Shown: positions 27,939-31,651 of the stretch, one piece after another
How positions within the stretch are numbered: position 1 is the stretch's first letter
How the letters are laid out: each line of letters begins with the position of its first letter
From: Anaerolineae bacterium
GTDB taxonomy: Bacteria; Chloroflexota; Anaerolineae; Anaerolineales; Villigracilaceae
NCBI GenBank assembly: GCA_017303655.1
Contig: JAFLCE010000011.1
Span: forward strand, 1 to 64,000
DNA length: 64,000 nt
Direction of reading: 5' to 3'
Position numbers and translations under genes: made by a program
The notes under the pieces: model-generated
Told to the model about the DNA's origin: nothing
The model's input: the letters and a program-made list of their open reading frames with translations, nothing else
The model's database searches: none

Positions 27939-29015
27939 ATGGCGCAGCGACAATTGACTACTGAGGATATTTACGGGTCAGATCCTTTTGCCTGGGTTGC
28001 ATTGAAAACGCTTGGGGCTACACCAGTCACATTGGGATTATTTTTTCTTCTCACTAGTGTTCTTTATGCACTCATCCTGCCGTTCTTTTGGGGGTATCCG
28101 TTAACCGTCAACGGGAATGATTTTATCTATATGTTCCTTGTCTTCCCGGTGGCTGGATTCTTTTATGCCTATCAGCCCACCCGGATCATCACCACCTATG
28201 AAAGCGTCATGCGCTTCCTACGTGATGAAGAACAGGGGCATATCATCCATTTTGAGAAAATCATCCGCAGACATAACAGCCGCGTATTATGGATCATCGG
28301 ATTATTATTCGGCTTGATGGGCGCATGGTTTGGGGTTACGTATAGCGCAGAACACTTTGGAGAGTATTGGTACAGCACGAATTGGTTTCAGATCATATTC
28401 GTTCATCTCATGCGTTTGCTGGCATTTTATTGCATTGGCGTGACGGTTGCACGGCATATCGCTACCTCGATTGAGTTAAATCATTTATTTGAAAGCGCAG
28501 ATTTTCCGCTGACCCTCGATGCAGACCGGCTGGATGTGTTCCGCAGTGTAAAGAATTTTGCGCTGGAATTCGTAGGGGTTGCCGCATTGATCGCTTTGAA
28601 TCTTGGGGTACAGCCTTTGATCATTGACCCGCCCATTTTGGAATATTCGATCTATGTTGCTTTATATTTCATCGTAGCGCCGTTCAGTTTTTTTCTGCCG
28701 ATCTGGGAAGCGCATCAGCGCATGGTACACATCAAGAAAGAGATTCTCGACAGATTGCACCACGATTATCAAGAAGAGTCGCAAAGACTGTACGGAGAGA
28801 TCCATCGGGATGGAAACACGTCTACTGAATATTTGCATGTCTCAGAAAAATTACTGCAACTGGATAAAATGATCGAAACCGTATCCAAGGCGCTGGTATG
28901 GCCCTTCGAAGGGACAACGGTCTACCGACTGGCAGCTACGGTCATTTCGCCGTTCATTTTGGTGCTGTTCGAACTTTCCATTAATATTGTAAGCAATATA
29001 CTGGCAGGGACATAG
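27939..29015 (+). CDS. Multi-pass membrane protein of unknown function
   Basis: 358 aa. Hydrophobic segments lie near 30-53, 62-82, 113-135, 145-170, 210-245 and 330-352. Between the last groups is a charged helical stretch (HIKKEILDRLHHDYQEESQRL) with coiled-coil character and a TTVYRLAATVISPF motif near the end. The overall layout suggests an integral membrane protein with a cytoplasmic coiled region. I recognise no family. It is divergently transcribed from the channel-like gene, sharing a 77-base intergenic region. Confidence 0.72.
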   Translation: MAQRQLTTEDIYGSDPFAWVALKTLGATPVTLGLFFLLTSVLYALILPFFWGYPLTVNGNDFIYMFLVFPVAGFFYAYQPTRIITTYESVMRFLRDEEQGHIIHFEKIIRRHNSRVLWIIGLLFGLMGAWFGVTYSAEHFGEYWYSTNWFQIIFVHLMRLLAFYCIGVTVARHIATSIELNHLFESADFPLTLDADRLDVFRSVKNFALEFVGVAALIALNLGVQPLIIDPPILEYSIYVALYFIVAPFSFFLPIWEAHQRMVHIKKEILDRLHHDYQEESQRLYGEIHRDGNTSTEYLHVSEKLLQLDKMIETVSKALVWPFEGTTVYRLAATVISPFILVLFELSINIVSNILAGT

Positions 29016-29149: not shown

Positions 29150-29689
29150 TTACTGTAAATATTCTTCAAACAAGGAACGGAAGTCGTTCTCTGAGGTGAA
29201 ACCGATCAATTTCTTAAGAACGTTGCCGTTTGCATCCAGGAGATAGAACTCTGGCTGGTACACGAACCCGAGCGTGCGTTGAAAGGATTCGGTCAGTGGA
29301 TCGTCGGCGTCGAGATAACTAAATGTGACCCTGCCATAATACTCTGCTTCGAGCCCATGAACCATGGGCGCCATTGCGCGGCAGACACTTCAGGTGAAGC
29401 GGAAGAACTCGACCAGTTGCAACCCACCTGAAGCCAGGCTAACAGTGGCTGGGTCGGTGGCTTCGAGGGCATCACCACGCGGGGTGACGACCACGGCAGG
29501 GACGACGGCGGGCGCTTCGGTGAGGGCGGGTGCCTCGGTCTGCGCTGCGGCGGCTTCTGTGGCTGCGGGGGGTACTGCGGCTGGGTCAGAAGCTGTGGAC
29601 GGGGTTTCGGTTGGAGGGGTTGAGGCGCAGGCAACTGCCAGAAGGGCAATCACCAGGCTCAGGCTCCAGAACAAGAGGCGGGGTTTCAT
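29150..29689 (-). CDS. Thioredoxin-like lipoprotein, predicted selenoprotein (in-frame TGA, U-x-x-C)
   Basis: Reads as one 179-residue protein if the TGA at 29392-29390 is decoded as selenocysteine (residue 100). Residues 1-21 are a lipoprotein signal (lipobox LAVAC, Cys21), followed by a long A/P/T/E-rich linker. The thioredoxin fold starts LQLVEFFRFT, then U100-S-V-C103, then RAMAPMVHGLEAEYYGRV. It continues with a cis-Pro segment YQPEFYLLDANGNVL and a final helix. The frame is identical on both sides of the TGA, with no frameshift. A bacterial SECIS-like hairpin lies at 29353-29369. AAGGAG precedes the start. It is probably an exported thiol redox protein. Confidence 0.85.
29353..29369 (-). 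promoter_or_regulatory. Candidate bacterial SECIS element of the thioredoxin-like gene
   Basis: Within the coding sequence, 20 bases after the TGA, GCCCATG pairs perfectly with CATGGGC around loop GTT (29362-29360 on the minus strand). The apical loop begins 27 bases after the TGA and its first base is G. This fits the published bSECIS model (short stem, 3-14-base loop, G in the first two positions, 16-37 bases from TGA). Confidence 0.75.
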
Positions 29690-29793
29690 CGAGTTTCTCC
29701 TTGGGTTAATGATACTCAGTTCTCTGAACTTCTTACACTTTCACAGCAATTTCTAACATGAGGTACGTCATCCTTAAAAACCGTCGCATTACT

Positions 29794-29932: not shown

Positions 29933-31651
29933 ATGGCAAAGTTCAAGCTCACGTACGCAACCATGTTCAACCCGCCCGAAGAACTGCACACTGGCTTTGA
30001 TAAAGCAGTGGCAGAGCTCAAAGCCAATATGGGCAAAGAATATGGCATGTTCATCAACGGTAAGGAAGTGCTGGCGGATGAGAAGTTTGACGACCACTCG
30101 CCCGTCAACACCGATTGGGTGCTCGCCAGAATGCAAAAGGGCAATTCGAGCCATGCCAAAATGGCAATGGAAGCGGCTCGTAAAGCCTTCCCCGCCTGGA
30201 GCCGTACCCCCTGGCAGGAACGTGTGAAGTTGTTGCGCCGGGCGGCGGCGTTGATGGAAGATCGTATTTTCGAGTTGGGCGCTGCCATGGCAATGGAAGT
30301 CGGCAAGAACCGCATGGAGTCGTTGGGGGATGTGCAAGAAACTGCAGACTTGATCTATTACTCCTGCTATCAAATGGAAAAAAATAACGGCTACATCACC
30401 GAAATGGGACGTGATCCGTTGGTGGGCTATGAAGCCACCAATATTTCGGTACTGCGTCCTTACGGCGTGTGGCTGGTGGTTTCACCGTTCAACTTCCCAC
30501 ATGCACTTACGGGCGGACCTTCGGGCGCCGCTTTGGTTGCGGGCAATACGCTTGTGATCAAACCCGCTACAGATACTGCCTGGATCGTGCGCCTCTTGGT
30601 GGATTGCTTCCGCGATGCGGGCATTCCTGAAGGTGTGGTTAACTTTGTGACAGGACCCGGCTCGACTCTTGGTCAGGCTTTGGTCGACAGCCCTGAAGTG
30701 GATGGCGTCACCTTTACCGGTTCCTTCGATGTCGGCATGAAGATGTACCAGGATTATGCCAAGCGTGAATATGCGCGCCCGATGATCCTTGAACTCGGCG
30801 GCAAGAATCCTGTGATCGTTTCGCGCAATGCCAATTTGGAATTGGCTACTTTGGGCATTATCCGCTCGGCATTCGGCTTGCAGGGGCAAAAATGCTCCGC
30901 TGCCTCGCGCGTGTTGGTGGAAGAACCGGTCTACGATGAAATGGTCGCCCGCCTCAAAGAGATGGCAGACAAACTCGTCCTCGGCGACCCGACCGACCGC
31001 AACACCTATAACGGACCGGTCATCAATAAGAGTTCGTATCAAGACTTCAAAGATTTCACCGAAGAGATCAGCCAAGCCGGTGCGACGTTCTTAACCGGCG
31101 GCAAAGTACGCGTGGACGGTGATTATGGCAAGGGCTTCTTCTGTGAAAGCACCTTCGTCACCAACCTGCCCTTTGAACACCGTTTGTGGAAACATGAAAT
31201 GTTCCTGCCCATCACCACGATCGGCAAGGTAAAGAATCTTGAAGAAGGCATGGCAATCGCCAACGACGTTAACTATGGTCTGACGGCTGGCTTCTACGGC
31301 TCGCCTGAAGAGACCAATTGGTTCTTCGACAAGATCGAAGCAGGCGTCACCTACGCCAACCGCCCGCAGGGCGCATCCACTGGCGCATGGCCCGGCTTCC
31401 AACCCTTTGGCGGCTGGAAAGGCTCCGGCTCCAGTGGCAAGAACGCTGGCGGACATTACTACCTGCCGCTCTACATGCACGAGCAGATCCACACCTCAGT
31501 GAAGGTCGCTCCTGCAAAAGCTGCTGAGACTCCGAAGAAGAAAGCGGTAGCTGCGAAGAAAGTTGCTAGCAAGAAAGTAGCGGCGAAGAAGGTCGTTGCG
31601 AAAAAGGCTGTCAAGAAAGCAGTAAAGAAGACGGCTAAGAAAAAGAAGTAA
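29933..31651 (+). CDS. Aldehyde dehydrogenase, delta-1-pyrroline-5-carboxylate dehydrogenase-like, with Lys/Ala-rich tail
   Basis: 572 aa. Catalytic Cys321 lies in GLQGQKCSAASR and general-base Glu287 in LELGGKNP, with VVSPFNFPHALTGG in the NAD site. NRPQGASTGAWPGFQPFGGW near residue 490 resembles P5C dehydrogenases, which oxidise glutamate semialdehyde to glutamate. The last 47 or so residues are an unusual tail of AAKK-type repeats (for example KKVAAKKVVAKKAVKKAVKK), like histone H1 C-termini, so the enzyme may bind nucleic acid or another polyanion. The gene is monocistronic, with its own promoter and terminator. Confidence 0.88.
   Translation: MAKFKLTYATMFNPPEELHTGFDKAVAELKANMGKEYGMFINGKEVLADEKFDDHSPVNTDWVLARMQKGNSSHAKMAMEAARKAFPAWSRTPWQERVKLLRRAAALMEDRIFELGAAMAMEVGKNRMESLGDVQETADLIYYSCYQMEKNNGYITEMGRDPLVGYEATNISVLRPYGVWLVVSPFNFPHALTGGPSGAALVAGNTLVIKPATDTAWIVRLLVDCFRDAGIPEGVVNFVTGPGSTLGQALVDSPEVDGVTFTGSFDVGMKMYQDYAKREYARPMILELGGKNPVIVSRNANLELATLGIIRSAFGLQGQKCSAASRVLVEEPVYDEMVARLKEMADKLVLGDPTDRNTYNGPVINKSSYQDFKDFTEEISQAGATFLTGGKVRVDGDYGKGFFCESTFVTNLPFEHRLWKHEMFLPITTIGKVKNLEEGMAIANDVNYGLTAGFYGSPEETNWFFDKIEAGVTYANRPQGASTGAWPGFQPFGGWKGSGSSGKNAGGHYYLPLYMHEQIHTSVKVAPAKAAETPKKKAVAAKKVASKKVAAKKVVAKKAVKKAVKKTAKKKK

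Follow-up and report, generated by a model that had tools for sequence, protein, structure and literature searches.

A putative exported thioredoxin-like selenoprotein of Anaerolineae and its selenocysteine, double-selenocysteine and cysteine relatives

Introduction

Thioredoxins of the PF00085 family that contain selenocysteine (Sec) at the first position of a UxxC motif are listed as experimentally verified in the excerpt of the review PMC13188914 on which this account draws. Known thioredoxin-like UxxC selenoproteins are many and include NF041057, the Rcas_1661 family thioredoxin-like (seleno)lipoprotein, which the review excerpt gives as a DsbG-like protein (PMC13188914; PMC9312934, also in excerpt). 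The same source includes UxxU Prx-like thiol:disulfide oxidoreductases (PF00578) and a form of selenophosphate synthetase that itself contains Sec, and states that Sec-to-Cys substitution is rare, FdhA and SelD being the main documented cases (PMC13188914). For the Chloroflexota, the selenoproteins reported in the available parts of PMC5736913 and PMC4959059 are formate dehydrogenases.

The gene considered here lies in a 64-kb window, the whole stretch of Anaerolineae DNA that was analysed. Its product shares with the known Sec-thioredoxin the PF00085 family and the Sec at the first UxxC position, and is unlike it, as far as the excerpted description goes, in having a signal peptide, a lipobox and a long Ala/Pro linker. 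The redox motif is U-S-V-C in the window protein and U-[SG]-T-C in most of its close relatives, and identity to the solved thioredoxins in the Foldseek list is about 16-28%. With NF041057 the protein has in common, by the name and table entry of that family, the character of a thioredoxin-like lipoprotein and the UxxC motif, but the NF041057 model, of 247 positions, matches it only up to the active site and with 15.2 bits against a cut-off of 190. The Rcas_1661 family has its origin in Roseiflexus, also a member of the Chloroflexota. Nowhere in the window's genome is the NF041057 cut-off of 190 exceeded (best 144.4), and the window protein passes none of the NCBIfam cut-offs, the best being TIGR01068 with 29.4 bits against 96.8. 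The PF00578 UxxU proteins, as excerpted, resemble eight relatives described below in carrying two Sec in one redox motif, whereas they belong to another Pfam family and the window protein itself is UxxC. A search by title and abstract of the open-licence PMC literature, with subscription papers and preprints outside its scope, found no description of an Anaerolineae thioredoxin-lipoprotein family. The kind of protein, a UxxC thioredoxin, is already known; what is unusual is the wealth of Sec, double-Sec and Cys forms, including some with remnants of a hairpin.

Results

The reading frame is interrupted by a single TGA, with S-V-C next to it, and closes with TAA (Table 1). A first-pass annotation of the window had claimed that a signal peptide and the first half of a thioredoxin fold end at this TGA, that the same frame goes on with S-V-C and the rest of the fold including a cis-Pro segment, and that the TGA falls where the first Cys of CxxC belongs. 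Translation, the PF00085 match and the alignment bear out all of this: both halves of the domain are present, one on each side of the TGA, and PF00085 matches residues 89-172 with 31.2 bits against a cut-off of 23.5 when Sec is written as Cys. Signal and lipobox Cys were seen by eye in the translations of the window and of relatives, and suggest a putative lipoprotein; a hydrophobic start ending in a lipobox-like Cys recurs in most relatives, whose start sites were chosen by a script with that motif in view. The large open reading frames on either side (27939-29015 and 29933-31651) are both on the opposite strand, so the gene seems to stand alone. The likely terminator hairpin (-33.5 kcal/mol, z = -9.56) was revealed by direct folding and was not listed by a simple terminator scan.

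Table 1. Positions in the window of the gene, its protein segments and its flanking signals
Feature	Positions	Strand	Remarks and basis
Whole selenoprotein gene	29150..29689	minus	179 residues and TAA stop, codon 100 TGA read as selenocysteine; translation, PF00085, relatives
Signal peptide, residues 1-20	29630..29689	minus	read from translation
Putative lipobox cysteine, Cys21 (LAVAC)	29627..29629	minus	translation; similar motifs in relatives
Ala/Pro/Thr-rich linker, residues 22-75	29465..29626	minus	read from translation
Thioredoxin domain, residues 76-179	29153..29464	minus	PF00085, AlphaFold2, Foldseek
In-frame TGA, Sec100, first redox position of U-S-V-C	29390..29392	minus	translation and relatives
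Resolving cysteine, residue 103	29381..29383	minus	column invariant in 50-row alignment (TGA written C)
Bacterial SECIS hairpin, 7 bp, GTT loop 29362-29360	29353..29369	minus	six conserved pairs, compensatory changes in four
cis-Proline, residue 146	29252..29254	minus	invariant in 50-row alignment
Shine-Dalgarno-like AAGGAG, 7 bases 5' of ATG	29697..29702	minus	read by eye
Likely intrinsic terminator, strong hairpin and T run directly 3' of stop codon	29098..29147	minus	fold

An AlphaFold2 model of residues 60-179, built from a 50-row alignment with Sec written as Cys, has a mean pLDDT of 91.9, and its best Foldseek matches are thioredoxins (best E 3.1e-8, 24% identity). Invariant in the same alignment are the two redox positions, Gly155 and Pro146, the last of which we take to be cis from general knowledge of the fold. 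The PF00085 score, the fold, the two redox residues and the cis-Pro are all those of the thioredoxin family. The model arranges its strands and helices as a plain thioredoxin does, and has no helical insertion of the DsbA type.

TGA occupies the aligned codon in all 46 relatives from named records other than the window's. These relatives were gathered by matching short peptides; since the hairpin codes for one of these, AMAPMVHG, the set is biased towards Sec forms. A second search, with the domain as query and no hairpin-encoded pattern, covered 396 whole genomes from the class to which the window belongs. Domain matches were found in 131 of the 396 genomes, relatives without TGA among them; the 23 best listed matches all carry one TGA, TGA-less matches appear from rank 24 down, and the best listed match bears a TGA in 93 genomes, distant members included. 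In the relatives read, frame and domain run on past the TGA (in L060 the sequence after the site is masked by N). The 60 regions fetched were picked from the listed matches of the class search, one batch leaning to genomes without selA. The TGA-bearing sequences, window included, make up a set of 102 Sec forms, from which L060 (N runs; the codon itself is TGA), eight duplicates and seven loci with a local alignment short of the codon (L109, L118, L119, L128, L129, L150 and L155) were left out. TGC or TGT stands in the same column in 18 distinct relatives, which supplies the Cys homologues that the first-pass annotation had asked for. The locus thus has the pattern by which bacterial selenoproteins are recognized, a conserved in-frame UGA (46 of 46) aligned with Cys elsewhere.

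The hairpin GCCCATG-GTT-CATGGGC (29369-29353) is a perfect 7-bp stem that starts 20 bases past the TGA, its loop opening with G after 27 bases, just as had been claimed. The published SECIS model, in the excerpt of PMC13188914, is a stem-loop with a G in the first two loop positions and 16-37 nt from the UGA to the loop; at 27 nt and with G as first loop base, the window hairpin agrees with it. Taken alone the hairpin is unremarkable by energy (z = -0.40 for the 60-nt fold), and some stem of at least seven pairs, G-U counted, occurs in the allowed place in 42% of synonymous shuffles of the window; the window's own six-pair stem occurs at its own place in 1.25%. Since single-sequence folding could not tell the hairpin from chance, comparative tests were used instead.

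With columns numbered from the T of the TGA, the six stem pairs join 24-29 to 35-40. The covariation count took in 83 Sec forms out of the 102, each of them UxxC and most of them higher-scoring, and these comprise 81 distinct sequences. Among these 81, 98.1% of the 486 stem cells are paired, both partners are altered in 35 cells where shuffles give 4.9, and pairing falls to 11.9-47.7% when the partner is slid along; RNAalifold, unaided, returned the same six pairs. Compensatory changes occur in four of the six pairs, yet 92 of 500 shuffles equalled this, and the measure alone says little. The compensations seen include CCC/GGG, TCC/GGA (Pro to Ser) and CCT/AGG (Gly to Arg), and in some of them an altered amino acid on one side is met by a silent base on the other. 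The stem-count tests covered all 102 Sec forms: six of six pairs are formed in 88 and five in 14, whereas synonymous shuffles gave a mean of 1.7 and a maximum of 7 full stems in 200 trials. The third base of the His codon follows its partner as well (A-T 65, G-C 16, G-T 1 in the 82 Sec forms that bear the His). Judged from the aligned sequences, the conservation of the TGA and of the stem pairing across relatives is far beyond chance, and the comparison shows a downstream hairpin, under RNA-level selection, that marks the UGA. The earlier identification of a bacterial SECIS therefore holds through conservation and pairing, and the single-sequence hairpin from which it was drawn is weak evidence.

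The window's genome encodes selA (541 bits), selB (343 bits), selD (361 bits) and tRNA-Sec (68.5 bits, also called as tRNA-SeC by ARAGORN), all on contigs other than that of the gene. The lack of such machinery, which would have spoken against a selenoprotein, is hence not the case: selA, selB, selC and selD are found in the same genome. The assembly is a draft of 172 contigs with 5.82% contamination. Three genomes of the same genus or family that consist of one contig each (G027, G213 and G351) contain the gene, selA and selB together, so that a binning error is not the cause. The selD gene has an in-frame TGA of its own (L070, G000:C129:40505-41434), and its product is probably a selenoprotein itself.

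The association of TGA with machinery was examined by a Fisher test on the best match of 128 of the 131 matched class genomes, three with unlisted rows being left out. Here TGA was taken from the stop count of the match, its position being confirmed in fetched loci only; selA was scored as absent when there was no match or E was weaker than 1e-60, and selB was looked for in 24 genomes, those without strong selA and a few others. Strong selA is present in 88 of the 93 genomes with a TGA-bearing best match, against 21 of the 35 without (p = 6e-6, the genomes being related to one another), and is missing from 5 and 14, respectively. Neither selA nor selB was found in 3/93 of the former and 12/35 of the latter; the three with TGA (G315, G312 and G354) are 78, 67 and 67% complete. 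The link between TGA and selA is real but partial, because 21 of the 35 genomes with a TGA-less best match still have selA. Some of the TGA-less best matches are ordinary thioredoxins (L120, L108). Among the 75 rows with a known genome, Sec goes with machinery in 55 and without it in 2, and Cys without machinery in 13 and with it in 5, the Cys rows leaning to genomes without selA. A test of Sec against machinery on independent pairs comprised 4 pairs only, too few to reach 0.05.

Eight relatives (L122-L127, L130 and L131) are UxxU forms, with TGA at both redox positions and one downstream hairpin, whose stem has six of six pairs in seven of them and five in the other. A quick tree of 120 domains contains at least 11 Sec/Cys changes and at least four changes at the second position, the domain being short, the root on an ordinary thioredoxin chosen and single switches poorly placed; a single clade of all Sec forms is rejected (p-AU 1.1e-8). 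Node support where Cys leaves join the path of the window ranges from 32 to 99, and is 65 for the nearest (L095).

In 12 of the 18 Cys forms four or fewer of the six stem pairs are left. The other six keep five or six SECIS pairs at the exact position, against 1.2 expected from GC3-matched synonymous shuffles, none of 2000 of which reached six such stems. Only 1 of 40 control ordinary thioredoxins has such a stem (Fisher p = 0.003), and on shifting the stem by -9, -6, -3, +3 or +9 bases it is found in 0/18 Cys forms, and in 3/18 at +6. The hairpin-keeping forms are L095 (G288), L106 (G073), L110 (G293), L111 (G238), L116 (G348) and L117 (G310); the stems of L111 and L117 are individually weak (p 0.17 and 0.15), and the other four have p 0.015-0.031 each. 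G288, G073, G293 and G238 are without strong selA and selB, and G348 and G310 have selA. These codons and stems make it probable that several lines went back from Sec to Cys.

Discussion

The locus is best explained as encoding one exported, lipid-anchored thioredoxin with selenocysteine as its first active-site residue, to which we assign a probability of about 0.95. That it is an exported thioredoxin-like selenoprotein, its UGA recoded and not a stop, appears nearly certain from the sequence comparison; TGA conservation, stem covariation and the sel machinery support the earlier reading of a selenocysteine-containing thiol oxidoreductase. A draft assembly with this degree of fragmentation and contamination could harbour a sequencing or assembly error that turned TGC or TGT into TGA, or a pseudogene, but the codon is TGA in 46/46 relatives from other records and also in one-contig genomes, and the frame past it is intact and conserved. 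A misread Cys codon and a true stop in homologues, the two other objections foreseen in the first-pass annotation, are thereby ruled out, and error or decay has a negligible share in our assessment. Equally negligible is an altered genetic code in which TGA stands for an ordinary amino acid throughout. Such a code would need the read-through of TGA as its only anomaly, but TGA also terminates 24 of 102 Sec-form genes, and 9 of 46 in the close set made up of the window gene, which itself has TAA, and 45 relatives, so that the code as a whole is unaltered in those genomes. The presence of tRNA-Sec and of the Sec enzymes argues in the same direction, as does a hairpin that is conserved with the TGA and reduced to four or fewer pairs in two thirds of the Cys forms (12/18). 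In other systems Sec UGA codons are known to be read through incompletely, and a signal and a lipobox are both present in the N-terminal piece; UGA might accordingly mostly stop, with a short lipoprotein as the main product and read-through set by selenium supply. However, conservation extends over the second half of the domain with its cis-Pro, and the short piece would hold the first strand of the domain only, which makes this account very improbable.

Given a full-length selenoprotein, we propose that SelB on the hairpin would deliver Sec-tRNA to the UGA, and that the protein would be exported and anchored through Cys21. At the outer face of the membrane Sec100 would attack disulfides or similar oxidised thiols, Cys103 would resolve the selenenylsulfide, and a CcdA/DsbD-type membrane protein would pass electrons across from the cytoplasm. 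The plain thioredoxin fold of the model favours a reductase over an oxidase, a preference that we hold with some reserve. The selenoprotein could also be supplied by VKOR and work as a thiol oxidase or isomerase outside the cytoplasm, since two VKOR proteins are encoded in the window's genome and the motif is without the WCGPC of cytoplasmic thioredoxin; the predicted order of strands and helices, with no insertion of the DsbA type, speaks against it, and three CcdA/DsbD-type proteins over the cut-off are encoded too. Genes of both types are absent from the window's contig, and neither adjoins the selenoprotein gene; a protein of either type could be the redox partner. We regard the oxidase or isomerase as the less probable of the two functions, though a serious one.

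What looks like two broken pieces is thus almost certainly a single gene for a complete, exported protein of thioredoxin type. Such genes would be split or truncated by automatic annotation, and an exported selenium-dependent redox protein may in this way be overlooked, one that would link thiol chemistry outside the cytoplasm to the supply of selenium in a poorly cultured group. The family may moreover be a natural record of repeated Sec/Cys exchange, in which the ancestors were UxxC, with UxxU under a single SECIS arising in several lines, and lineages losing SelA and SelB went back to CxxC, while the hairpin lingers in their coding sequence as a fossil in the course of decay; for this scenario the odds seem to us about even. 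With Sec, double-Sec and Cys forms side by side, and an RNA hairpin that can be traced through them, the direction of the exchange can be tested.

The surroundings of the gene were compared in 46 loci, the window and 45 relatives, the neighbours being named by eye from their translations. In 33 of them the opposite strand carries an aldehyde dehydrogenase gene upstream (window 29933-31651; relatives L015-L059), and in 30 there is a CoA-transferase gene; no clear redox partner was seen among the neighbours of these loci. Elsewhere in the window's genome, a weak DsbD_TM match below the cut-off (L166, G000:C1:227461-227679) contains one in-frame TGA and sits beside another DsbD_TM match; it could be a second selenoprotein or end at an ordinary stop. 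A DsbD_TM-type membrane protein also adjoins a sub-cut-off relative of NF041057 without TGA (L163 and L178, G000:C168:3610-5074), possibly as an exported thiol-redox pair.

Among 400 genomes of the phylum searched with a profile, 364 had a match at 1e-12. Below the leading rows, which bear TGA, the matches listed are mostly without a stop, and those examined look like ordinary thioredoxins, so the search says little on the spread of the family outside the class. Two matches outside the window's class, G660:C27:10999-11277 and G521:C2:30379-30660, have one in-frame TGA each and may be Sec forms of a wider family.
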